Assembly: GCA_903824675.1 (NCBI GenBank)
Contig: CAIJXV010000016.1
Location: 1-43,842, forward strand
Direction: 5' to 3'
Source: an uncultured bacterium
Lineage (GTDB): Bacteria; Verrucomicrobiota; Kiritimatiellia; CAIKKV01; CAIJXV01
Length of the DNA: 43,842 bases
The notes beneath the pieces were generated by a model that saw only the letters and a list, made by a program, of their open reading frames with translations, had not been told where the DNA came from and searched no databases. A program made the translations under genes and the position numbers. Below are positions 15,870-27,261 of the stretch, one piece after another; positions within the stretch are counted from its first letter, which is position 1, and every line of letters begins with the position of its first letter.

Positions 15870-16030
15870 AAATTCCTTAATTTTGTGGGGATGCGGGGAA
15901 ACCAACCCCCGGCACCCTTACCTGCATTAAGGATAACATGCCGGCGGGGTAAGAAAAGACGAAAAAACGTCTTATTTTAGGGCGGAAGTCCTTGAAAAGA
16001 GGGTTGAGTGAAAATAATTTCACAAAAAGC

Positions 16031-16058
16031 TTCCCATTATCCTGCGGCAACCTATAAT
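16031..16058 (+). promoter_or_regulatory. Sigma70-type promoter giving a near-leaderless mRNA
   Basis: A perfect -10 TATAAT (16053-16058) lies 16 bases after TTCCCA (16031-16036, four of six matches to TTGACA). Transcription should begin about 16065, within three or so bases of ATG 16068. No ribosome binding site precedes that ATG, which fits leaderless translation. Confidence 0.5.
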
Positions 16059-16067
16059 GCATCCCCT

Positions 16068-17510
16068 ATGACGGACGAAAAAGCGGTAAATGAAGACCCA
16101 ATTCCCCTCGGGGAATTAAAGATCGATTTAACATTTGGGCCAGGTTGGGCAAAGGCGCCACCGCCGGCACATGCCTTTGAGCACGCCGATGGTTTTGATG
16201 AAGGCGACCGCCGGCGCAGTCGTTTCAATCGCGACTCGGGCGGGGGTGGCGACCGCGATCGGCGCGGAGGACGTGATGCGGCCCGACGGCGGCCTGGCGG
16301 CGGGGGCCGTGAGCGCGGCGAGCCCGAGCCGATTTCCGGGGCACCTCGTATGACGGCGACATCCGGCCGTGAAGATCCTCTGCCGACACTGGATCTGGAG
16401 ATCGAATTTTTCCCGGAGCGGCGGGGATTGGCGCCCTTGGCGCACCGGTTGGCCCGATCGGGCCGGGCTTTTTCATTATTTGAAGTTTCCTCCTTATTTT
16501 TAAGCAAACCGGAATACTATGCCGTACGTGTTGCGATTCCGGAGGGCGTGGCGGGCGGGACGATTCCGATGCTGTTCCAGTGTCAGGAGTGTAAGATGGT
16601 GTTTGCCGACCGGATGGCGGCTGAAACACACGCTTTTGAACGGCATTACGAGAAATTTTACCGCAAAGAAGAGATTGAAGCGGAGCCGCCGAAAGGCCAG
16701 TTTGTGTGCATCGCGCGGTGTACCCTGTCGGGTGAGGTGTTGGGCCCGCCGAATTATCATGGCTACCAGGAACGGTTGCTGGCCTTGCACAAGGCGCGAT
16801 TCGGGCATTTATCGCTGGACGAATACCGGAAAAAAGTTGAAACCCTGCATGATCCGGCCTTGGTGGAGCAGTGGAAAGACCGGATGAAGGTCCAGACGGT
16901 CTATCACCGGATCGATGCGCCGGAAGGGACGCCGCCCTTAGCCCGCTGGATTGATCTGGAACGGGATTTCCGGGAACGCCAGGCGGCGGTGATGATCCAG
17001 GATGGCCGCAATTTTGTGATTCCCGGCGTAGTGGCCACGGTGATGGAAGATGGCCGTATCCGCTCGATTGCGAGGCTGGCCTGGAACCACGAAGCCCGGT
17101 TCCCCTTGAAATTGTCGATTGTCCTGCGGCTGGCCTTTCGCCGGCTGGGGTTGCATTTGTTCAAAACGGCGGAAGGGGCGACTTACGTCACCTCTATCTG
17201 TCCCGCGGCCCTGGATGCGGCACAGGCTGTTCCGGTGGTCCGTGAAATTCTCGAATATCTGGCGACCCATCCACGGGTGAAAATCAATGAAATCTCGCCG
17301 GCGTTACGCCCGGGAGTGATTGAAACCGATCCCGGGGTGTTGGAAGTGACGCGGGCACTGCGTTGGTTGGTGGATCGAGGACATGTGATTGAATTCAACG
17401 ACGGTCGGGTAATGGCGCCAGATCAGTCGGTTCTTCGGGTTCAACATGCGCGGCGTAAGCGAGGAAAAGGCGAGGACTCTGCCGGCGGCCGGCCGGCGGG
17501 AGTGCGGTAA
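16068..17510 (+). CDS. C2H2 zinc-finger, Arg/Gly-rich probable nucleic-acid-binding protein
   Basis: A 480-residue protein. Residues about 45-98 are low-complexity and Arg/Gly-rich (GGGGDRDRRGGRDAARRR type), like RGG boxes of RNA-binding proteins. A folded part follows, with a single C2H2 finger at Cys172, Cys175, His188 and His193 (C-x2-C-x12-H-x4-H, with Phe179 at the usual place). The last 90 residues (EILEYLATHPRVKINEISPAL, then RALRWLVDRGHVIEFNDGRV) look like a winged helix. No enzyme motif is seen. A soluble regulator or RNA-binding protein is the best inference; the family name is not recognised. ATG 16068 is chosen over 16008 because a TATAAT box lies between them. Confidence 0.7.
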   Translation: MTDEKAVNEDPIPLGELKIDLTFGPGWAKAPPPAHAFEHADGFDEGDRRRSRFNRDSGGGGDRDRRGGRDAARRRPGGGGRERGEPEPISGAPRMTATSGREDPLPTLDLEIEFFPERRGLAPLAHRLARSGRAFSLFEVSSLFLSKPEYYAVRVAIPEGVAGGTIPMLFQCQECKMVFADRMAAETHAFERHYEKFYRKEEIEAEPPKGQFVCIARCTLSGEVLGPPNYHGYQERLLALHKARFGHLSLDEYRKKVETLHDPALVEQWKDRMKVQTVYHRIDAPEGTPPLARWIDLERDFRERQAAVMIQDGRNFVIPGVVATVMEDGRIRSIARLAWNHEARFPLKLSIVLRLAFRRLGLHLFKTAEGATYVTSICPAALDAAQAVPVVREILEYLATHPRVKINEISPALRPGVIETDPGVLEVTRALRWLVDRGHVIEFNDGRVMAPDQSVLRVQHARRKRGKGEDSAGGRPAGVR

Positions 17511-17615: not shown

Positions 17616-20588
17616 ATGAAAAACCACACCCGCACTTTTTTCATGGTCAGCCTTTGGTCGGTTTTCATGGCCTCTATTCTCGCTGTTGTGGGGGTTCAGG
17701 CACCGCCGGCCGCCGAAGCTCCGCAGGCCAATGCGGCCGACCAGAAGATCGATGCGGATATTCAGTTTGCCGCCGGTCTGGTGCGGCTGGGTTTTCCGGA
17801 TTATGCTGAAAAAGTAATGAATCGCCTGATTGCCGAATATCCCGAGGCCAAAGCCCGGGCGGCGGCGATCAAGATCCAATCCCTGACGGCCCGCGGGAAA
17901 TTCGACGAGGCCGAAAAGCTGATCAAGGAGATGCCGCCGGACAGCATCGAAACCCTGAGCATGATGCTGGCGCTGGGGGATGCCTATTATGCCTGGAATA
18001 AGCTGGGCAACGCGAAACAATGTTACGAGTCGTTTTTCAAGAAATATCCAAACGGTCCGCCCAAAGAACTGGCCAAACTCTACAGCGAATCCGCCTATCA
18101 ATTTGCCCAGATGCTGTCGTTAAAAGGGGACAACAAGGGGGCCTTGGAAGCCTATCGGTATGTTTTGATGGGCCAGCCGGATGCGGACACCGAGCGCCAA
18201 ATCAAGGCGGAGATGGCCGAGTTTCTGTTGAAGGTCGGCCAGGATGCCCCGCCGGCGGAGCGCAAGGCGCTGTTCGCTGAGGCAACCAAGCTGTGTACTG
18301 AAATCCAGTGGAAGGGTACGGACCTGTTTTTTGGCAAGACGGTGGTCATCCTGGCGCACATGAAGCTGGTCGAGGGGGATCCGACCGGGGCGGTCAAGGT
18401 TATCAGTGATTATCTGCCGATGCTGGCACAAATTGAAAATTTTCTGAAAGAAGAGAAGATTTCGCTAAAATTCAGCCCCATGGCGGAGTGCCGGTTTTTG
18501 CTGGGGACGGTGGCCGAGGATGAGGGGCGGAAGATGGTGGAGAATCCCGCCCAGTTGGATGCGGGCAAGAAGAAGCTGGCGGAAGCCCTGACGCATTATT
18601 ACACCATTTTCATGAAATATTATGCCAGTTCCTGGGCGCCGGAGGCGGGGAAGAAAGCCGAGGGGATCGTGGCTTTTCTGGAATCGAAGAAGATCACCGT
18701 TAAAAAGCCGAATCTGGACATGACGCAATTGATGGAGGCCCAATTTGTCGAGGCCAAATCCCTTTTTTCAGAGAACAACTTCAGTGCGGCGGCCGAGAAA
18801 TACCTGGAAGTGCTGAGCATGTTTCCTGAACAACCGAGATCGGTCGGCGCCTTGCAAGACCTGGCGACCTGCTATATTCAGGAAGGCGGGTCGGAACCCT
18901 TTGCGAAGGCGGTCACCCAATATCTGGCCCAACGGTTTGCGGGGAACAAGCGGGTGGCGACCGAAGCCGGAAATGCCCTGCTGAACATTGCCGGGATTTA
19001 TGAGGGACAGGGGAATCAGGCGCGGGTTTCCGATATTTATCAGGATTTTATCGACCGGTTCAAGGATCATGAAAAAGTGCCGCTGGTGATTTACCGGTTC
19101 GGGGATTTCAAGTTCCAAGAGAAGAAATACGCGGAAGCCCTGATCTATTACAACCGCCTGATTGCGGATTATCCCAAAGCGCGACAATATTCCGATGCCT
19201 TGAGCCGGGCGGCGCAGTGTGCGACCTCTTTGGGCAGTCATTCGAACGCGTGTGAATATTTGACCAAGTATCTGGCCGAGCTGTCGCCGGGCGCCGATAA
19301 AGTGGCGGCCACTCTGCGGTTGGGAGAAGCGTATCGCGCCAATGACCAAAACGTTCAGGCGATCAATGAATATGTGCGGGTGGTGAAGTATGCCACGGAG
19401 GAGGCCAACCTCTATTCCCGGACGCCGGAGGATGTATCCCGAAACCGTAAACTGGTGGAGATGGCGCTGTATTTTAAATCGGTTTGCTACACCCGCCTGA
19501 AAAAGCCGGAAGACCGGATCCCGATGTTCCAAAGCAAGGCCATCGAGGGTTTTGAGCAGTTGGTCAAAGACTATCCCAAATCGGACCTGGCGCCGCAAGC
19601 CCTGAGCGTGATGGGAACCCTGCTGTACATTCAAAATAAGCCCACGGAAGCCAATTCCGCCTACGAGCGGCTGAAACGGGATTTTCCGACCTCCGACCAG
19701 GCCTCGAACATTGTTTTCGTGCGCGGCGATAGTCTGCTGAAAATGGGGCGAAAGGACGAGGCGGTCAAGGTATTCAACGAGATGTTCGACAATGCCAAGG
19801 CTTACACGCCCCAGCAATTCATGAAGGTGGGCGGCACGATGGCTGAGGCGAAGGAATACCAGACGGCGATCAAGGCGTTCGAGTTGGCCCGGCAAGGAAC
19901 GGATTCAAACACCTGGCAATTGGCCACGCTGGGCCTGGGGGAATCGTATGCCTCGGCCTCGAATTACCTGGCGGCCATTCCACCCATGGAAGAGTTGTTA
20001 ACCAAGTTCCCCAAATCCCGCGCCATATTGAACGCTTATTTCATCCTGTCCGAAGCGTATGCCCAGAAGGCCGGCCAGGAGGCGGATGAGGTGAAAAAAC
20101 GGGAGTTTTTCAACAAGGGGATCAGTTATCTCAATAAGGCGCGCCGCCTGATGGATCCGGATATGAGGCCCCAGGCTGATTTGAAAGTCGCGGCCATCCA
20201 ATTATTGCAGGGAAAAACCGACGATGCGATCGCCTCCTACATGCGGTTATTGCTGACGGCGGATTTGAACAAGACTTCGGTGCGGCCTTTTGTGGAAGAG
20301 GCCTTTGTTAAAGTTCAGCCGTTGTTGATCGAGAAAAAATCCTTTCAGGATGTCATCGACAATTGCGAAAATTATGTGACCACTTTTCAGCAGGGGACGT
20401 ATCTGAAACAAGCGCGGGAGTGGCGCAGCCAGATGCAGATGAAGGGCTTCAAAGGTGCCGGAGTGGTGGCCGAAGAACCGCCGGCGGCGGAAGCTGCTGC
20501 TGCGCCGTCCGCCGTCCCGGCTCCTGCTTCTGCGCCTGCCGCGCCTCCGGAAGAGGGTGCGGGTACCGCCGCCCCGGTAGCGCCGTAA
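17616..20588 (+). CDS. Large secreted TPR protein of the ExbB/ExbD cluster
   Basis: A 990-residue protein. The start at ATG 17616 gives a signal peptide (charged MKNHTRTFF, hydrophobic core, cleavage near VGVQA at about 29). The body is almost entirely TPR-like helix pairs, for example KFDEAEKLIKEMP, NFSAAAEKYLEVLSMFPEQ, KKYAEALIYYNRLIADYPKA and GRKDEAVKVFNEMF. The last 40 residues are rich in Ala, Pro and Glu (AAAAPSAVPAPASAPAAPP), a flexible tail. TPR arrays act as scaffolds; in the periplasm of motor clusters they often bind peptidoglycan-associated or outer-membrane partners. It leads a same-strand run of seven genes ending in a terminator. Its exact partner is unknown. Confidence 0.8.
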   Translation: MKNHTRTFFMVSLWSVFMASILAVVGVQAPPAAEAPQANAADQKIDADIQFAAGLVRLGFPDYAEKVMNRLIAEYPEAKARAAAIKIQSLTARGKFDEAEKLIKEMPPDSIETLSMMLALGDAYYAWNKLGNAKQCYESFFKKYPNGPPKELAKLYSESAYQFAQMLSLKGDNKGALEAYRYVLMGQPDADTERQIKAEMAEFLLKVGQDAPPAERKALFAEATKLCTEIQWKGTDLFFGKTVVILAHMKLVEGDPTGAVKVISDYLPMLAQIENFLKEEKISLKFSPMAECRFLLGTVAEDEGRKMVENPAQLDAGKKKLAEALTHYYTIFMKYYASSWAPEAGKKAEGIVAFLESKKITVKKPNLDMTQLMEAQFVEAKSLFSENNFSAAAEKYLEVLSMFPEQPRSVGALQDLATCYIQEGGSEPFAKAVTQYLAQRFAGNKRVATEAGNALLNIAGIYEGQGNQARVSDIYQDFIDRFKDHEKVPLVIYRFGDFKFQEKKYAEALIYYNRLIADYPKARQYSDALSRAAQCATSLGSHSNACEYLTKYLAELSPGADKVAATLRLGEAYRANDQNVQAINEYVRVVKYATEEANLYSRTPEDVSRNRKLVEMALYFKSVCYTRLKKPEDRIPMFQSKAIEGFEQLVKDYPKSDLAPQALSVMGTLLYIQNKPTEANSAYERLKRDFPTSDQASNIVFVRGDSLLKMGRKDEAVKVFNEMFDNAKAYTPQQFMKVGGTMAEAKEYQTAIKAFELARQGTDSNTWQLATLGLGESYASASNYLAAIPPMEELLTKFPKSRAILNAYFILSEAYAQKAGQEADEVKKREFFNKGISYLNKARRLMDPDMRPQADLKVAAIQLLQGKTDDAIASYMRLLLTADLNKTSVRPFVEEAFVKVQPLLIEKKSFQDVIDNCENYVTTFQQGTYLKQAREWRSQMQMKGFKGAGVVAEEPPAAEAAAAPSAVPAPASAPAAPPEEGAGTAAPVAP

Positions 20589-20639
20589 GGGTACGCCCGA
20601 GGCAGGATTTAATGTGGACCTAAGGAGAGGATTCGGCGT

Positions 20640-21437
20640 ATGAAAACTATGCAACGGTGGGTTGTGGCGATGGGGATGATCGGCTGGACCCTCGCCGGCG
20701 TCAGCGCCGCGATGGCGGCCAACGTGATGTATTTGAAGAACGGGAGTACCATTCAGGCCAAATCGATCCAGTGGCGCGAAGGGGCGCAGGAATACCGGGT
20801 GGAAGATTTCAAGAACACGGTCATGCCCATTCCGTTGGCCCAAGTCCAACGGTTGGATGTCGATAAACCGGCGGATTTCGACCGGGCCAAGGGCATGGTG
20901 GATGGCGGCCAGGCTGAAGCGGCCGTGCCGATCCTGGAGAAGATGGTGGATGAATATCGGATGCGGTTGTGGGACAACCGGGCGCGGGAATTGCTGGGCA
21001 AGGCCTATTTTCAGAAGCGGGACTACAAAAAGGCAGGGACGATTCTCGAGGATCTCTTTAAAAATGCGTTGCCGGGTCAGATCACACCCGAATTACGCCG
21101 GTTTTATTGGGAAACCCTGATGTTGATTCCGGAACGCCAGAGCTCCTTGAAAAAGGATATCGAGGCCACGATCACCAGTGGTTCGCGGGACTTGGCGGCG
21201 TCGGCCATCCTGATGCGGGCGGAGCTGTATCGGAATCAGGGCCAAAAGGAAGATGCGCTGGTTGATTATTTGAAGGTGGCGGTGTTGTTTGAAGATGTTC
21301 CGGCCATACATCCGGAGGCCCTCTACAAAGCGGCAGAGGTGCTGGACGAAATGCGGGACCCCCGGGCTGCGGAAATGCGCAAGAAGCTGAAAGCCCAGTA
21401 TCCCGGAAGTAGCTGGGCTAAAAAAGATGTCAAATAA
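20640..21437 (+). CDS. Secreted SH3-like plus TPR protein of the ExbB/ExbD cluster
   Basis: A 265-residue protein with a signal peptide (1-27, ending SAAMAA). Residues 28-75 resemble a small beta barrel (VMYLKNGSTIQAKSIQWREG; PIPLAQVQRLDV). The rest is helical and TPR-like (AEAAVPILEKMVDEY; KRDYKKAGTILEDLFK). It starts 51 bases after the large TPR gene, with GAGGA eight bases before the ATG. The secreted location and the neighbours suggest it joins the large TPR protein in a periplasmic complex linked to the ExbB/ExbD motor. Confidence 0.72.
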   Translation: MKTMQRWVVAMGMIGWTLAGVSAAMAANVMYLKNGSTIQAKSIQWREGAQEYRVEDFKNTVMPIPLAQVQRLDVDKPADFDRAKGMVDGGQAEAAVPILEKMVDEYRMRLWDNRARELLGKAYFQKRDYKKAGTILEDLFKNALPGQITPELRRFYWETLMLIPERQSSLKKDIEATITSGSRDLAASAILMRAELYRNQGQKEDALVDYLKVAVLFEDVPAIHPEALYKAAEVLDEMRDPRAAEMRKKLKAQYPGSSWAKKDVK

Positions 21438-21455
21438 GGGTCGGTTGTTTCGCAC

Positions 21456-21485
21456 TTGATGCAGGCAGGTTTGAAAGACTATACT
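21456..21485 (+). promoter_or_regulatory. Possible internal promoter before exbB
   Basis: TTGATG (21456-21461), an 18-base spacer and TATACT (21480-21485) lie in the 76-base gap before exbB. An overlapping alternative is TTGAAA (21471-21476) with TAATTA (21493-21498). Either could let the motor genes be made independently of the TPR genes. Confidence 0.35.
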
Positions 21486-21513
21486 GTACGACTAATTACA
21501 GAGAGGATACGCG

Positions 21514-22347
21514 ATGAAAAAACAAATGGGTTGGCTGGCGGTCATGGTGGTCGTGGGATTCCTGGGTATTCTTTGCGCGCGAGCGATGGCTCAAGATGCG
21601 GCGCCCGCGGCGGCGGGCGCAGCGGCTCCCGCAGTGGCGGCGGCTGGTAATGCGCCGGCGGGCGCGGGGACCGAGTTGAAGAAAGATGCCGAGGAAAAGC
21701 CCAAGGTCGATACCAGCTTCATGGCCATGGTGCTCAGCAGCGGATGGCTGGGCGTTGCGCTTTGGCTTGGCTTGCTCGGCGCATTGATCTCCATGATTTA
21801 TTTCACGATCGATTGTTCCATGACGGTTCGAACCGTCAAGATTGTGCCGCCCGAGCTAATCCGCAAAGTCAACGAATGCATGCAACAGGGCGATGTGTTC
21901 AAGGCTTTGCAATCCTGCAAGGACGAGCCCAGCCCGATGGCCAACATCCTCGCCGCCGGCCTCAGCCATGTGGAAGATGGATATGAAGTCATCCAGGAAG
22001 CCGTGACCGTGGCGGCGGAATTCGAGAGCGAAAAGCTGATGCAGCACATTTCCTGGCTCTCCGTGACGGCGGCGCTCGCGCCCATGCTCGGACTGCTCGG
22101 AACGGTGCAGGGGATGATCATGGCCTTTGAAACCATCGCCACCGGCGGCGGCGCGCAGACCGGCATGCTGGCCTTGAGTATTTCCCAGGCCCTTTGGACC
22201 ACGGCCGCCGGCCTCACCGTCGCCATCCCGGCGATTACGGCGTTCACGGTTTTCCGTAATTTTGCAAATAAAGCGACCCTGCGGATGCAAGCCATCACCA
22301 TGGATCTGATCAAGGATCTGCGGAACGTCGAAGTCGTTCCGGAATAA
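21514..22347 (+). CDS. exbB: ExbB/TolQ/MotA-family proton channel protein
   Basis: A 277-residue inner-membrane protein. It has a signal-like N-terminus (to about 26), then an Ala/Pro/Gly-rich periplasmic segment (27-66), then three membrane helices at about 74-98, 180-206 and 222-244. The family core is LAPMLGLLGTVQGMIMAF followed by QALWTTAAGLTVAIPA. Thr197 and Thr230 match the conserved channel threonines, whereas the glutamate equivalent to E. coli ExbB Glu176 appears to be Gln225. ExbB pentamers surround ExbD and turn proton flow into motion. AGAGGA precedes the start. Three ExbD genes follow directly. Confidence 0.92.
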   Translation: MKKQMGWLAVMVVVGFLGILCARAMAQDAAPAAAGAAAPAVAAAGNAPAGAGTELKKDAEEKPKVDTSFMAMVLSSGWLGVALWLGLLGALISMIYFTIDCSMTVRTVKIVPPELIRKVNECMQQGDVFKALQSCKDEPSPMANILAAGLSHVEDGYEVIQEAVTVAAEFESEKLMQHISWLSVTAALAPMLGLLGTVQGMIMAFETIATGGGAQTGMLALSISQALWTTAAGLTVAIPAITAFTVFRNFANKATLRMQAITMDLIKDLRNVEVVPE

Positions 22348-22429
22348 ACGACCGCTCGATGGCCACCCTCCGGCTGGCGGCAGCTTTTGCGAGCGCCCTG
22401 GCCGGCGATTGTACGTGCGGGAGGAAAAC

Positions 22430-22855
22430 ATGGCGAAAAAAGTTAAAAAGAATTACGAAAGTAACATCGACATGACGCCGATGATCGACTGCGTCTTTCA
22501 GTTGATGATTTTCTTTATCGTAACCATCCAGTTGGACAATGATCAGATCAGCGAAAAAATCAAACTGGCGCAATCTCCGAATGGTCCGAAGATCGAAAAA
22601 AAGATACCCGGTACGATGATTATCCAGCTGGATAAGGACGGGAATATCCTGATGGGCAAGGCGGTTTGCAACGAAGCGGCCTTGAGAGGAATTGTCGGCT
22701 TAGCCGTCAATCGGATGGGACCCAGTCAGGTGAATATCATGATCCGGGCGGATACGAAGACCAAGCACTACTATGTGAGACGGGTGATGGATATTTGCAC
22801 GGAAAAAGGCATCTATAAAATCCAGTTTGCCGCCATGAAGAAAAAAGGCGAATAA
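22430..22855 (+). CDS. exbD: ExbD/TolR-family protein, copy 1
   Basis: A 141-residue protein started at ATG 22430, where GAGGA sits five bases upstream. A short cytoplasmic lysine-rich start is followed by one membrane helix, SNIDMTPMIDCVFQLMIFFIVT, with the proton-path aspartate at Asp20, then a periplasmic ExbD domain of about 100 residues (IIQLDKDGNILMG; VRRVMDICTEKGIYKIQFA). It lacks the NRP motif shared by the next two copies and has a longer linker, so it is the most divergent of the three. Confidence 0.9.
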   Translation: MAKKVKKNYESNIDMTPMIDCVFQLMIFFIVTIQLDNDQISEKIKLAQSPNGPKIEKKIPGTMIIQLDKDGNILMGKAVCNEAALRGIVGLAVNRMGPSQVNIMIRADTKTKHYYVRRVMDICTEKGIYKIQFAAMKKKGE

Positions 22856-22869
22856 CGGAGAGGTGATTT

Positions 22870-23259
22870 ATGGCTAAAGGCGAAGATCCCAAATTGGACA
22901 TGACGCCGATGATTGATTGCGTCTTCCAGTTATTGATTTTCTTTATCGTGACCCTGAAGCCCGAAGACATCATTGCGCATCTGGATGTCAACCGTCCGGC
23001 GCCGGACGCCAAGGCCAAACAGGATGAAACGCCCGAAGACCTGATTCAGGTCATGATCTTTCGGGATGGCTTCAATATCAATAACCGCACCGTTTCGCTC
23101 AATACCCTGCAGGGGGTTTTGGCCAAACTGGCGTCGATGAGCACAACCCAGACGATTTTGATCAAATGCGCATCCGATTCACCCCATGAAAAACTGGTTC
23201 AAGTTTTGGATCTGTGCAGTCTGGTGGGGCTGAAAAACCTTTCCGTTATGAGCATGTGA
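22870..23259 (+). CDS. exbD: ExbD/TolR-family protein, copy 2
   Basis: A 129-residue protein 14 bases after copy 1, with GAGAGG upstream. The membrane helix LDMTPMIDCVFQLLIFFIVTL carries Asp16. The segment after it, KPEDIIAHLDVNRP, is nearly shared with copy 3, so these two arose by a later duplication. The periplasmic domain has the usual ExbD fold pattern (IQVMIFRDGFNINNRTVS; LVQVLDLCSLVGLKNLSV). Confidence 0.9.
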   Translation: MAKGEDPKLDMTPMIDCVFQLLIFFIVTLKPEDIIAHLDVNRPAPDAKAKQDETPEDLIQVMIFRDGFNINNRTVSLNTLQGVLAKLASMSTTQTILIKCASDSPHEKLVQVLDLCSLVGLKNLSVMSM

Positions 23260-23261
23260 TT

Positions 23262-23346
23262 TTTTCATGCGGCAGGAGCATGAAAATTGTTGTAATGCGT
23301 TCCGTTTTTTCGGGAATACGGTTTGACGCCATCATCCGGCGTCAAA
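23262..23346. promoter_or_regulatory. Run of hairpins between ExbD copies 2 and 3
   Basis: Two perfect nine-base dyads lie in the 100-base gap: TTTTCATGC/GCATGAAAA (23262-23286) and TTTGACGCC/GGCGTCAAA (23322-23346), each with a seven-base loop. A weaker TTCC/GGAA dyad with a T-rich loop lies between. The second ends just before the GGGAGG ribosome site of copy 3. They could be mRNA processing or stability elements that set the ExbD ratio. No clear terminator. Confidence 0.45.
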
Positions 23347-23359
23347 AGGGAGGTGGCTG

Positions 23360-23743
23360 ATGAGCAAATCCCACGATTCCGAAAAAATTGATATGACGCC
23401 CATGATCGACATTGTTTTTCAATTGTTGATTTTTTTCGTCATAACGATGAAGCCATTGGACATTATCGCGCATTTGGATGTCAATCGGCCGATGGCGATA
23501 AGCGGGGAATCCATCGGGATTGATCAGTTTCAGGTGACCGTGGCCCGCGACGGGTTCCGGATTAATGAGCGGGGGGTGTCGGTGGAGACGTTAACGTCTA
23601 TTTTGGGGCGGATGGCTCACTTCGGCAAGGATCAGGCGGTTGTTGTCGCTTGTGACTCAAATGCCGAACATGACGGATTGGTTCGCGTTTTGGATATTTG
23701 TCATTCAGTCGGGCTGCATAAGATTGCGCTGGTTTCACGATAA
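23360..23743 (+). CDS. exbD: ExbD/TolR-family protein, copy 3
   Basis: A 127-residue protein with GGGAGG before the start. The membrane helix DMTPMIDIVFQLLIFFVITM has Asp17 at the proton site. It shares IIAHLDVNRP with copy 2 and the same end pattern (LVRVLDICHSVGLHKIALVSR). With copies 1 and 2 it gives three different ExbDs for one ExbB, whereas a functional ExbD unit is normally a dimer, so heterodimers are possible. Confidence 0.9.
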   Translation: MSKSHDSEKIDMTPMIDIVFQLLIFFVITMKPLDIIAHLDVNRPMAISGESIGIDQFQVTVARDGFRINERGVSVETLTSILGRMAHFGKDQAVVVACDSNAEHDGLVRVLDICHSVGLHKIALVSR

Positions 23744-23826
23744 AATGATCAGACTGTAATAATGGGCGGGTGGAGAAGGAATAGGACGAGATGCGGATGA
23801 TGGATTAATACGCGGAGGATGGCGCT

Positions 23827-25368
23827 ATGGGAACCGAATTAATTGAATTATTGGAAGAGAAGCCGCTTAAAGAACGCCTGAAGCTCATTATCAAAGGGTT
23901 GAAGGCCCCGAGAGATTCCGGCGAATTCCGGTTTGCGAGATTTGAGTTACTGCGTTTGTTTGGGCCGAGCACCCTTTCCATCCTGATCGGAGCAGGGGTG
24001 GCGGCGGGATTGTTGGTTTTTGCCGTGGGGCAACAGCTCTCGAGCGATTCGGAGGTGGAGGTGACGGTGGTGGAAATGGAAACCGTCAAGCTCGACGATA
24101 TCAAGATCGAAGAGATCAAGCCTGAAGAGATGGAAGAAGTTGATGTGACCGTGGATACCACGGTCGTGGCGCCCCCCTCGGAGTATTCAGCTCCATCGGA
24201 TACGCCAGGAGTTGGAGTGGATGGAGACAAGGATACCCCGATGGTGGCGTTTGCGCCGGTGATGACGAGGAGTCCGCTGGTGATGAAGAGTTTGTATGGA
24301 AACCGGACAAAAGGGGGGCGAAACACCGCTCTGGCCTCATACGGTGGCAGCAGTGTCACGGAAGCATCCGTGATAAAGGCGTTGCGTTGGTTAAAGGAGC
24401 ATCAGAAGCCGGATGGCTCGTGGGATTCGCCGCCCATTGCGATGACGGGTTTGGCCTTGTTGACTTATCTGGCCCATGGGGAAACTCCAGCCTCTGAGGA
24501 ATTTGGACCCACGGTTGAAAAAGCCATTAAATATCTGCTTTCGAAACAATCGGCCAATGGATCCTGGTCGCCCAATACCTATCAAAACGGAATTGCCTGT
24601 TATGCCATGAGCGAAGCCTTTGCGATGACTAAGATCATGGCTATCCGGGAGGCGATGGAGAAGGGGGTGGAATTCATCATCAAGGGCCAGCATGAAAAGG
24701 GCGGATTTCATTACGTTTATAATGCGCCGACTTGGGACATGTCCTGTTGCGGCTGGCAGTTCCAGGCATTCAAGGCGGCCAAGATGGCGGGGGCGACCAA
24801 TCCGGATTTGGAACAGGCGATTAAGCGCTCGATCAATTTGATGAAGGAATGGTCGTATTCCAACGTGGGCGAAGCGGGCGGCTGGGGGTATTCGGGGGGA
24901 TACGAGAAACCCGGGGGGGGAGTGTCCTGGACGATGACTTCGGCGGGGACGTTGTGTATGCAGTTGCTGGGACAGGCGAAATCGAAGCAGGTCCGCAATG
25001 GAATTAAATATTTGGAACCCCAGGTGTGCAAATGGCCGGAGAAAGCCGCGAAAGATGCGAAGGCGAAAGGGACGGCGGCGGTGTATGGGTGGTATTATCT
25101 GACCCAGGCCAAATTCCAGGAGGGCGGATCGACCTGGAACAATTGGAACAAGCAATTTTCGCGCGAACTGGTGCAAAACCAGGAGGAAGATGGACACTGG
25201 GAAGGGGGCGATCACGATCCGGGTTCGCATGTCTACACGACCACGTTGTGTGCCCTGATGTTGCAGGTCTACTACCGCTATCTTCCCAGTTACAAGCATG
25301 TCGAGGACGAGGCTGGCGGAGCGGCGGATGCCCTGAAGTCAGACGACATCTCCGTCAGTATCCTGTAA
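23827..25368 (+). CDS. TM-anchored alpha-alpha toroid (prenyltransferase/squalene-cyclase repeat) protein in the TonB position
   Basis: A 513-residue protein. A charged cytoplasmic start (1-45) precedes one membrane helix (about 47-67), then an acidic linker (about 74-112, VEMETVKLDDIKIEEIKPEE) like the post-membrane segment of TonB proteins, and a Pro/Ser/Gly spacer. From about 175 to 490 it is an alpha-alpha toroid of the prenyltransferase/squalene-oxidase repeat type: KEHQKPDGSW, SKQSANGSW, GQHEKGGFHYV, GEAGGWGYSGG, NQEEDGHWEGG. The Asp-rich cyclase motif DxDDTA is absent, so a binding rather than cyclase role is likely. Place, topology and linker suggest it replaces TonB as the partner of ExbB/ExbD. 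GGAGGA precedes the ATG. Confidence 0.83.
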   Translation: MGTELIELLEEKPLKERLKLIIKGLKAPRDSGEFRFARFELLRLFGPSTLSILIGAGVAAGLLVFAVGQQLSSDSEVEVTVVEMETVKLDDIKIEEIKPEEMEEVDVTVDTTVVAPPSEYSAPSDTPGVGVDGDKDTPMVAFAPVMTRSPLVMKSLYGNRTKGGRNTALASYGGSSVTEASVIKALRWLKEHQKPDGSWDSPPIAMTGLALLTYLAHGETPASEEFGPTVEKAIKYLLSKQSANGSWSPNTYQNGIACYAMSEAFAMTKIMAIREAMEKGVEFIIKGQHEKGGFHYVYNAPTWDMSCCGWQFQAFKAAKMAGATNPDLEQAIKRSINLMKEWSYSNVGEAGGWGYSGGYEKPGGGVSWTMTSAGTLCMQLLGQAKSKQVRNGIKYLEPQVCKWPEKAAKDAKAKGTAAVYGWYYLTQAKFQEGGSTWNNWNKQFSRELVQNQEEDGHWEGGDHDPGSHVYTTTLCALMLQVYYRYLPSYKHVEDEAGGAADALKSDDISVSIL

Positions 25369-25396: not shown

Positions 25397-25429
25397 GCGC
25401 CCGGATGTAAAATCCGGGCGCGTTTTTTT
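25397..25429 (+). terminator. Intrinsic terminator of the ExbB/ExbD/toroid operon
   Basis: A perfect ten-base stem (GCGCCCGGAT at 25397-25406, complement at 25412-25421), a five-base loop and seven T after one G. It lies 28 bases after the toroid stop and 11 bases before mutL, so mutL needs its own promoter or readthrough. Confidence 0.92.
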
Positions 25430-25440
25430 GTAAAGGGACC

Positions 25441-27261
25441 ATGACTCCGAAACCTCAGATCAGACTGTTGCCGCCTGAAGTCGCCAACAAGATTGCCGCT
25501 GGCGAAGTAGTGGAGCGCCCTTCATCGGTCGTCAAGGAATTGATCGAAAATTCACAGGACGCCGGAGCGGGGTCGATTGAGGTTCAGGTAGTGGCCGGGG
25601 GAACCCGGTTGATCTCCATCACCGATGATGGGTGGGGGATGGATCGCGACAATGCGTTGATGGCCTTGGAACGGCATGCCACCAGCAAGATTCGCGATGT
25701 AGGGGATATCGAACACATTGCCACCTTGGGTTTCAGAGGTGAGGCGCTGGCGGCGATCGGATCGGTCAGCCGGTTTCGGATGCAAACAGGGGTACGGGAA
25801 ACTCCCGGGGGGACCGAGATCGTGATGGCGGGTGGCAAGCTTCAGGATGTTCGCGATTGCGGGTGTCCGCCGGGGACGACGATCGAGATTCGCGATCTGT
25901 TTTTCAATGTTCCAGCCCGGCGCAAGTTTTTGCGTTCAGTCGCCACGGAACTGTCCCATGTCCGGCAGGTGTTTCTGGTGCATGCTTTAGCTCATCCGGA
26001 GACGGCCCTGCGGCTGGTGGTCGATAACCGGGAAGTCTGGCGCTTGCCCGGCGGAGCGACGCTGGAAGACCGGATTCGCGAACTTTTTGGTGTGTCCTAC
26101 GTAGGGGATTTGAAGCCCATTCATTGGGCGGGTGGCGAACTGAACATCGAGGGTTATGTCGGGACGCCCAGTCTGGCCCGTGCGGATAGCAGTGAACAAT
26201 TCTTTTTTGTGAATGGCCGCCCGGCCGGGGCGCCCTTGATCTACCGGGCCATACGGGAATCGGTCCAGACCTTGCTCCCGACGGGGCGTTACCCCAGTCT
26301 TTTTCTGTTCCTGACCTTGGATCCCGGCGCGGTGGATGTGAATGTGCATCCGACGAAGAAAGAAGTCCGCTTCCGTCACGGGGGTGAGGTGCGGGATGGA
26401 GTCATGGCCGCTTTGCGGGCGGCGCTGGCGGGCGGGGTTCGGAGCGCAGGGGACCCGGCACAACCTTTTTCCATGTTCCAGACGCCCCCGGTCATTCGGG
26501 CCGAGCCGGAGCGGCAACTGCACATTGAAAATTTACCGACGTCCGGGGTATTTCGATATCCGCGAATGCCCGCCGCGGGAATCACGCCACCCCCTCCAGA
26601 AACGGGTGCCGTGTTGGGTGCGGGTCAATCGTCCTCAGTGGCTGCTGCGCCGGAGGGCGGGGGGGGGAGCGCGTCCACCCCATGGAGTTGGTGCCGGATC
26701 GTCGGGCAGGTGGGCGGCTTATACGTGCTGTTGGAGACGGAGGATGGCCTGGTCGTCATGGATCCCCATGCAGCGCATGAGCGGGTATTGTTTGAAAAGT
26801 TCATGCGCCGATTTCTCAAGGGCGACCTGACCTCGCAATCCCTGCTTTTGCCGGAAACCGTCGACTTGCCGCCGCGGGATGTACAAACCGTACGAGACAA
26901 TCTGGAGTTGTTGAAAAAAATGGGATTTGGCATCGCGGAATTCGGCGGGGATACGTTTTTGGTGGATGCCTTACCGGGCGGATTGACCGGATTATCCGTA
27001 CGGACTTTCCTGGCGGATATGGCGGGATTATTGGAATCGGCAGGGGATCGGGGTGGGCGTGAAAATGCACGGGCGGAAGTGATCGCCCAGGCGGCTTGTA
27101 AGGCGGCGGTGAAGGCCCGGGATCGGTTGACAGTGGCAGAAATCGAACAATTGGTGGTCGATTTGGCGACGGCCGAAATGCCGTATACCTGTCCACACGG
27201 TCGGCCGACCCTGATTTTTATGTCCTTCCAGGAATTCCGGCGAAAATTTGGACGGGAGTAA
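25441..27261 (+). CDS. mutL: DNA mismatch repair protein MutL
   Basis: A 606-residue MutL. The N-terminal GHKL ATPase has ANKIAAGEVVERP, the ENSQDAGA motif, ITDDGWGM and LGFRGEALAAIGS; the linker is Pro/Gly-rich (about 350-415). The C-terminal dimerisation domain keeps the endonuclease set: DPHAAHERVLFE in place of DQHA-x2-E-x4-E, then QAACKAAVKA and CPHGRP. The Gln to Pro change in the first motif is outside the metal-binding residues, so nicking activity is probably kept. MutL couples mismatch recognition by MutS to strand incision. TAAAGGG lies just before the ATG. Confidence 0.97.
   Translation: MTPKPQIRLLPPEVANKIAAGEVVERPSSVVKELIENSQDAGAGSIEVQVVAGGTRLISITDDGWGMDRDNALMALERHATSKIRDVGDIEHIATLGFRGEALAAIGSVSRFRMQTGVRETPGGTEIVMAGGKLQDVRDCGCPPGTTIEIRDLFFNVPARRKFLRSVATELSHVRQVFLVHALAHPETALRLVVDNREVWRLPGGATLEDRIRELFGVSYVGDLKPIHWAGGELNIEGYVGTPSLARADSSEQFFFVNGRPAGAPLIYRAIRESVQTLLPTGRYPSLFLFLTLDPGAVDVNVHPTKKEVRFRHGGEVRDGVMAALRAALAGGVRSAGDPAQPFSMFQTPPVIRAEPERQLHIENLPTSGVFRYPRMPAAGITPPPPETGAVLGAGQSSSVAAAPEGGGGSASTPWSWCRIVGQVGGLYVLLETEDGLVVMDPHAAHERVLFEKFMRRFLKGDLTSQSLLLPETVDLPPRDVQTVRDNLELLKKMGFGIAEFGGDTFLVDALPGGLTGLSVRTFLADMAGLLESAGDRGGRENARAEVIAQAACKAAVKARDRLTVAEIEQLVVDLATAEMPYTCPHGRPTLIFMSFQEFRRKFGRE

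Follow-up and report, generated by a model that had tools for sequence, protein, structure and literature searches.

The seven genes between positions 17,616 and 25,368 of the window (the whole 43,842-nucleotide stretch of DNA from an uncultured Kiritimatiellia bacterium that was analysed) raise the question of what a proton channel of the ExbB/ExbD family drives when the last protein of its set carries an (α/α)6 toroid. The known effectors of proton-driven envelope motors are few: TonB, TolA, and those of the flagellar, gliding, and Zorya systems, with a vWA type proposed in 2025. The open reading frames of the set lie on one strand in the order TPRa, TPRb, ExbB, ExbD1, ExbD2, ExbD3, and toroid gene (17616–25368; Table 1), as the initial annotation had read them. 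The single strong terminator that it placed behind the last gene corresponds to a hairpin at 25397–25421, the strongest terminator-like site within 17–26 kb, and mutL starts 3′ of the hairpin at 25441. About 105 nt 5′ of TPRa, a gene without a Pfam match (16008–17510, +) encodes the C2H2-like stretch CQECKMVFADRMAAETHAFERH. Relatives of this gene are located upstream of the set in eight loci, for example L094:2888–4429, and the gene may belong to the same transcript as the seven-gene set.

Table 1 Features of the seven-gene set and of the toroid protein TOR (window positions)
Feature	Position	Strand	Properties
TPRa, secreted tetratricopeptide-repeat protein, ~990 aa	17616–20588	+	ATG start, longest ORF would open at TTG 17580; YbgF/BamD-like repeats; Sec-type signal sequence by eye
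TPRb, secreted	20640–21437	+	small N-terminal β-strand domain, then TPR superhelix
ExbB/TolQ-type channel subunit with N-terminal extension	21514–22347	+	MotA_ExbB PF01618 1.9e-28
ExbD1 (type 1, intact MTPMID)	22430–22855	+	PF02472 1.7e-22
ExbD2 (type 2, intact MTPMID)	22870–23259	+	PF02472 7.8e-20
ExbD3 (ExbD2 duplicate)	23360–23743	+	PF02472 5.9e-20
TOR, putative toroid transducer, 513 aa	23827–25368	+	Pfam SQHop_cyclase_C 3.4e-8
TOR residues 24–39, cytoplasmic motif GLKAPRDSGEFRFARF (long form)	23896–23943	+	conserved in long-form relatives and anti-sigma fusions
TOR residues 47–69, single transmembrane helix	23965–24033	+	AlphaFold2; S51 kept, G55 where TonB has His20
TOR residues 76–83, EVEVTVVE, strand-like stretch at the position of the TonB/TolA ExbD-binding box	24052–24075	+	alignment
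TOR residues 160–490, single (α/α)6 toroid	24304–25296	+	pLDDT mostly >90
TOR residues 505–513, acidic strand-like C-terminal tail SDDISVSIL	25339–25365	+	sequence conservation
Intrinsic terminator-like hairpin followed by GTTTTTTT	25397–25421	+	10 pairs, 8 GC, then T run

The profile matches bear out the two TPR proteins and the one ExbB-type channel of the initial annotation. TPRa is recognised by Pfam TPR_6 (7.8e-20) and by the NCBIfam model of YbgF-type repeats (4.8e-44). The AlphaFold2 model of TPRb (pLDDT of 92.3) contains six N-terminal strands followed by helices arranged in pairs, and its best PDB folds are TPR proteins of the BamD/MamA type. The PDB sequence closest to ExbB is TolQ (5e-17). 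Residues Thr197 and Thr230 of ExbB, which were equated by motif context with the E. coli pore residues Thr148 and Thr181, are invariant across 47 family sequences. The MTPMID motif with the proton-site aspartate is intact in all three ExbDs, as the annotation had stated, and the aspartate is conserved across the family. Of the three ExbDs, which the annotation called distinct, ExbD2 and ExbD3 share 50% identity, and ExbD1 shares 30–34% with each of them. Judged by its sequence, ExbD3 is a local duplicate of ExbD2 outside the conserved core of the set.

The AlphaFold2 model of TOR, built with 72 relatives, contains one transmembrane helix, a low-confidence stretch at residues ~80–155, and the toroid. 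Neither Pfam nor the model indicates a TonB/TolA-type C-terminal domain in TOR, the toroid being present instead, and a vWA domain has no Pfam match in the protein. The strand at the position of the ExbD-binding box is absent from the AlphaFold2 monomer, and the corresponding sequence pattern is in register in the relatives and in the window protein. The tail pattern, an acidic pair followed by alternating hydrophobic residues, is kept in relatives and is missing in the most distant ones from Verrucomicrobiota. We speculate that the tail may dock on a TPR partner and that the invariant residues of the toroid may bind a glycan or a peptide.

Profile HMMs placed the succession TPRa-TPRb-ExbB-ExbD-ExbD on the same strand ahead of 61 toroid genes, spread over 56 loci; the order, whose absence outside this genome had been set beforehand as one refuting test, is thus conserved, and a chance neighbourhood is ruled out by the recurrence. 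Two ExbDs are present in 58 of the 61 sets and three in the remaining 3. The host genomes are of Kiritimatiellia, Lentisphaerota, and other Verrucomicrobiota types and include that of the cultured Oligosphaera ethanolica, so the full set can be deleted and assayed in a cultured species. An alignment-based scan of GTDB genomes yielded 227 toroid relatives, and the best 79 loci carry the titles Kiritimatiellae, Lentisphaerae, Victivallales, and Verrucomicrobia, along with a few odd bins and Oligosphaera ethanolica. A single-sequence scan of genome contigs found no relatives, its patterns being too specific. All 17 genomes of the order contain a toroid relative, and the same gene order occurs in more distant Verrucomicrobiota families (L171, L172, L174, L175). 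In an even draw from the phylum, nearly half of the genomes (134 of 289) had a toroid match at 1e-60 or better, a number that counts toroid genes and not whole operons; within the class, a hand count of the listing gave 78 of 97. At 29 of 57 loci the set is followed 3′ by mutL, which points to a chromosomal location of long standing and to old vertical inheritance. Pairwise divergences of the six set proteins correlate at 0.74–0.94, which reflects shared ancestry and not contact. The ExbBs of toroid operons cluster apart from the other ExbBs of the genome with a support of only 75.

Several loci depart from this arrangement. At L104:7937–9760, mutL separates ExbD2 from the toroid gene. The toroid gene is often duplicated or triplicated in tandem (L076, L101, L128, L154, L168, L174, L181), and no motor genes were found in the 20-kb stretch read around the tandems of L168 and L181. 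In L178 (genome G136), the entire operon (TPRa, ExbB, toroid gene) is broken up into many frames, through either a long-read assembly error or decay. A frameshift artefact was also considered for the window set and was dismissed as its explanation.

The part of TOR that could couple it to the motor differs among its relatives. In 37 toroid relatives, GPxxSxxxH occurs in the transmembrane helix and a strand-like stretch of the VEVxMMEP type behind it, aligned in the same register as TonB (SVCIH ... ISVTMVTP) and TolA (SAVLH ... IDAVMV) of E. coli. Of 120 segment-preserving shuffles that kept the transmembrane composition, 5 reached the profile score of TonB, 3 that of TolA, and 0 that of the TonB of the same genome, which gives the resemblance to TonB and TolA moderate, not overwhelming, support. 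In E. coli, Ser16 and His20 of TonB contact Ser34 and Trp38 of ExbB (PMC12215075), and the box near the membrane binds the ExbD dimer (PMC12905483); a motor box was also described in PMC12204202. The Ser-x3-His (SHLS) motif is incomplete in the window protein, in which S51 is followed by glycine at the histidine position. The TonB-like topology that the initial annotation assigned to TOR, with a toroid in place of the TonB domain, is right as to the transmembrane helix and the toroid, and the protein lacks the TonB/TolA histidine. The window protein is a long form, which has the GLKAPRDSGEFRFARF motif and no transmembrane histidine and which retains the strand-like stretch behind the membrane; about five changes between long and short forms are needed on the toroid tree. 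All 29 His-type operons encode an ExbB with a serine in transmembrane helix 1, and 24 of the 28 His-less operons lack this serine. It can be equated with E. coli Ser34 only approximately, since the tryptophan, where present, is at Ser+5 and not at +4. The histidine and the serine show the nesting that a contact would produce, but the pattern contains only two well-supported independent pairs, which is not significant, so the contact of the toroid protein with ExbB that it points to is suggestive only. The lack of the histidine together with the conserved cytoplasmic segment indicates that docking or control was probably altered in the branch of the window protein.

Based on these features, the set probably encodes a dedicated energised envelope machine of the Ton/Tol type with a new effector end. 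By analogy with Ton and Tol, five ExbB subunits would surround a pair of ExbDs and convert proton flow into movement. The pair is most likely a heterodimer of ExbD1 and ExbD2, because nearly all sets encode two different types; the window also encodes ExbD3. The toroid protein would be the counterpart of TonB and TolA, its transmembrane helix placed on the outside of transmembrane helix 1 of ExbB and the strand just past the membrane docked on the periplasmic domain of ExbD. The force would be carried by a disordered linker of ~75 residues to the toroid, which takes the place of the TonB/TolA C-terminal domain and presumably grips the target. Between the toroid and the peptidoglycan or outer membrane, the two secreted TPR proteins probably act as adaptors or partners. 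We infer from this analogy that proton-driven motion is transmitted as force through the toroid protein, which would add the toroid as a further effector type of proton-driven envelope motors. The machine proposed in the initial annotation, which passes force to a periplasmic or outer-membrane partner via TPR and toroid parts, is thereby partly supported. One branch naturally lacks the histidine latch, which makes it possible to test how transducers couple to ExbB, an open mechanistic question in the Ton/Tol field. A wider reading is tentative, and we hold it with considerable doubt: the set could be a third Ton/Tol-like machine, phylum-wide in Verrucomicrobiota, that combines a heterodimeric-ExbD motor with a ligand-gripping toroid. 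One large branch, to which the window protein belongs, would have abandoned the histidine latch and been rewired through the cytoplasmic segment common to toroid anti-sigma factors; a single module would then serve both motor force and transcriptional signalling.

The same cytoplasmic segment also allows the reading that the set signals and does not pull, which we regard as unlikely. The toroid would then be a periplasmic ligand sensor whose state the motor sets or reports through the proton gradient, and the segment of the long form would pass the signal inward, as in the anti-sigma–toroid proteins encoded beside ECF-type sigma factors. The GLKAPRDSGEFRFARF-type N-terminus is common to the window protein and to toroid proteins with an anti-sigma-like N-terminus, and on the toroid tree the latter fall within the 19-row set that also contains the window protein. 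One of their genes lies directly 3′ of a gene for a Sigma70_r4_2 protein (E 1.2e-6) and another behind a similar open reading frame. Invariant residues of the toroid (W, Y, H, E, D, and K) suggest a binding site. However, the cytoplasmic part of the His-type form amounts to a short tail, and this form resembles a plain transducer; moreover, no conserved regulator is found beside the motor operons. The anti-sigma–toroid proteins of L067:8457–10774 and L083:9292–11600, each encoded directly 3′ of an ECF-type sigma factor gene, are possible toroid-sensing transmembrane anti-sigma factors in their own right. Among the toroid genes whose upstream sequence exceeds 6 kb, 31 have no motor genes next to them, in a sample that includes deliberately fetched weak paralogues, and the same holds for two paralogues within this genome, on contigs C102 (60% identity) and C101 (44%). 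The motor-less genes and the anti-sigma fusions count against the motor reading, since they indicate that the toroid module can also function with no motor beside it.

Less likely still, the toroid is a membrane-anchored periplasmic enzyme, such as a glycan hydrolase or lyase, that the motor positions or energises on the peptidoglycan or on a surface glycan. The single (α/α)6 barrels matched by TOR in Foldseek (single-domain TMt of ~0.6–0.7) are those of AprG, squalene-hopene cyclases, GH76 mannanases, MmpH, and the complement TED. A weak Pfam match to a pectate-lyase family and the many invariant polar and aromatic residues point in the same direction, but the fold matches are only 9–18% identical, and no known catalytic motif was found, the cyclase motif DXDD being absent from the window protein and nearly all of its relatives. 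TOR shares its fold with squalene-hopene cyclase, prenyltransferase, and TED, and differs from these toroids in its N-terminal membrane helix and link to a motor.

The YbgF/CpoB-type repeats of TPRa and the location of the locus beside housekeeping genes such as mutL would suit a second version of Tol-Pal in this lineage, which stabilises the outer membrane in division with the aid of YbgF-like TPR proteins. We consider this improbable, because a separate Tol-Pal-like locus is present on contig C55 of the same genome, with ExbB/TolQ, ExbD/TolR, a TonB_2 protein, a PD40 propeller, and an OmpA-domain protein. The TolB_N profile has no match in this genome despite the TolB-like propeller of C55, and the model is too insensitive to judge an absence of Tol-Pal by it. 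The toroid set resembles TolQRA-TolB-Pal-CpoB in its TolQ and TolR homologues and its YbgF/CpoB-like TPR protein; unlike it, the set and its conserved neighbours contain no TolB or Pal, and the toroid replaces the C-terminal domain of TolA.

The genome (4.24 Mb, 124 contigs) contains six ExbB genes. Contig C66 encodes a TonB (TonB_C 1.1e-22) and a Plug-domain receptor with no ExbB directly beside the TonB, an ExbB being located ~8.6 kb away on that contig, but it is very improbable that the window ExbB and ExbDs serve this TonB with the TPR and toroid genes as unrelated neighbours, given the ordered linkage at 56 loci in several families and the other ExbB-ExbD pairs of the genome. A simple TonB operon was likewise rejected as a reading of the window set, which has the proton-site aspartate and pore threonines of E. 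coli TonB-ExbB-ExbD, and in its His-type relatives the transmembrane and ExbD-box pattern, but has no TonB C-terminal domain, contains two different ExbDs and TPR partners, and includes no receptor gene. A Zorya defence motor was rejected because PADLOC gave no match to ZorA or ZorB at 0.001. Contig C74 encodes an ExbB, an ExbD, a TPR protein, and a vWA protein with SxxxH in the transmembrane helix, which resembles the vWA transducers of PMC12204202. The separate Tol-Pal-like, TonB, and vWA sets indicate that the window set is a distinct system of the same cell.

The Agl-Glt gliding motor of Myxococcus is similar to the toroid set in having one TolQ-like and two TolR-like proteins together with TPR proteins. 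We know of no toroid protein in it. The closest published relative is the family of PVC vWA force transducers reported in Mol Biol Evol in 2025, with TPR, TolQ, two TolR, and a vWA transducer (PMC12204202), a paper in which the word toroid is absent. Unlike these systems, the window set starts with two TPR genes, ends in an (α/α)6 toroid, and belongs to a branch without the histidine. The initial annotation knew of no characterised system with this composition. Among open-licence PMC papers, we found no description of a toroid motor set; the general idea is nevertheless not new, because the parallel vWA system was published. By the sequence features tested, the window set belongs to the ExbB/ExbD motor family, and its transducer has a C-terminal domain that is neither TonB/TolA nor vWA.

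Further motor arrangements were seen beside these. At L072:7149–12664, on contig C66 of genome G000, TPR, ExbB, and ExbD genes are followed by one for a 607-aa protein whose YscD/FHA-type match is weak; this set may be another motor variant. A divergent second set consists of TPR, ExbB, one ExbD, and a multi-transmembrane protein of 1234–1291 aa with SxxxH in a transmembrane segment and a C-terminal toroid (L054:9577–13437, L055:6781–10656, L058:6727–10431, L059:9436–13152).
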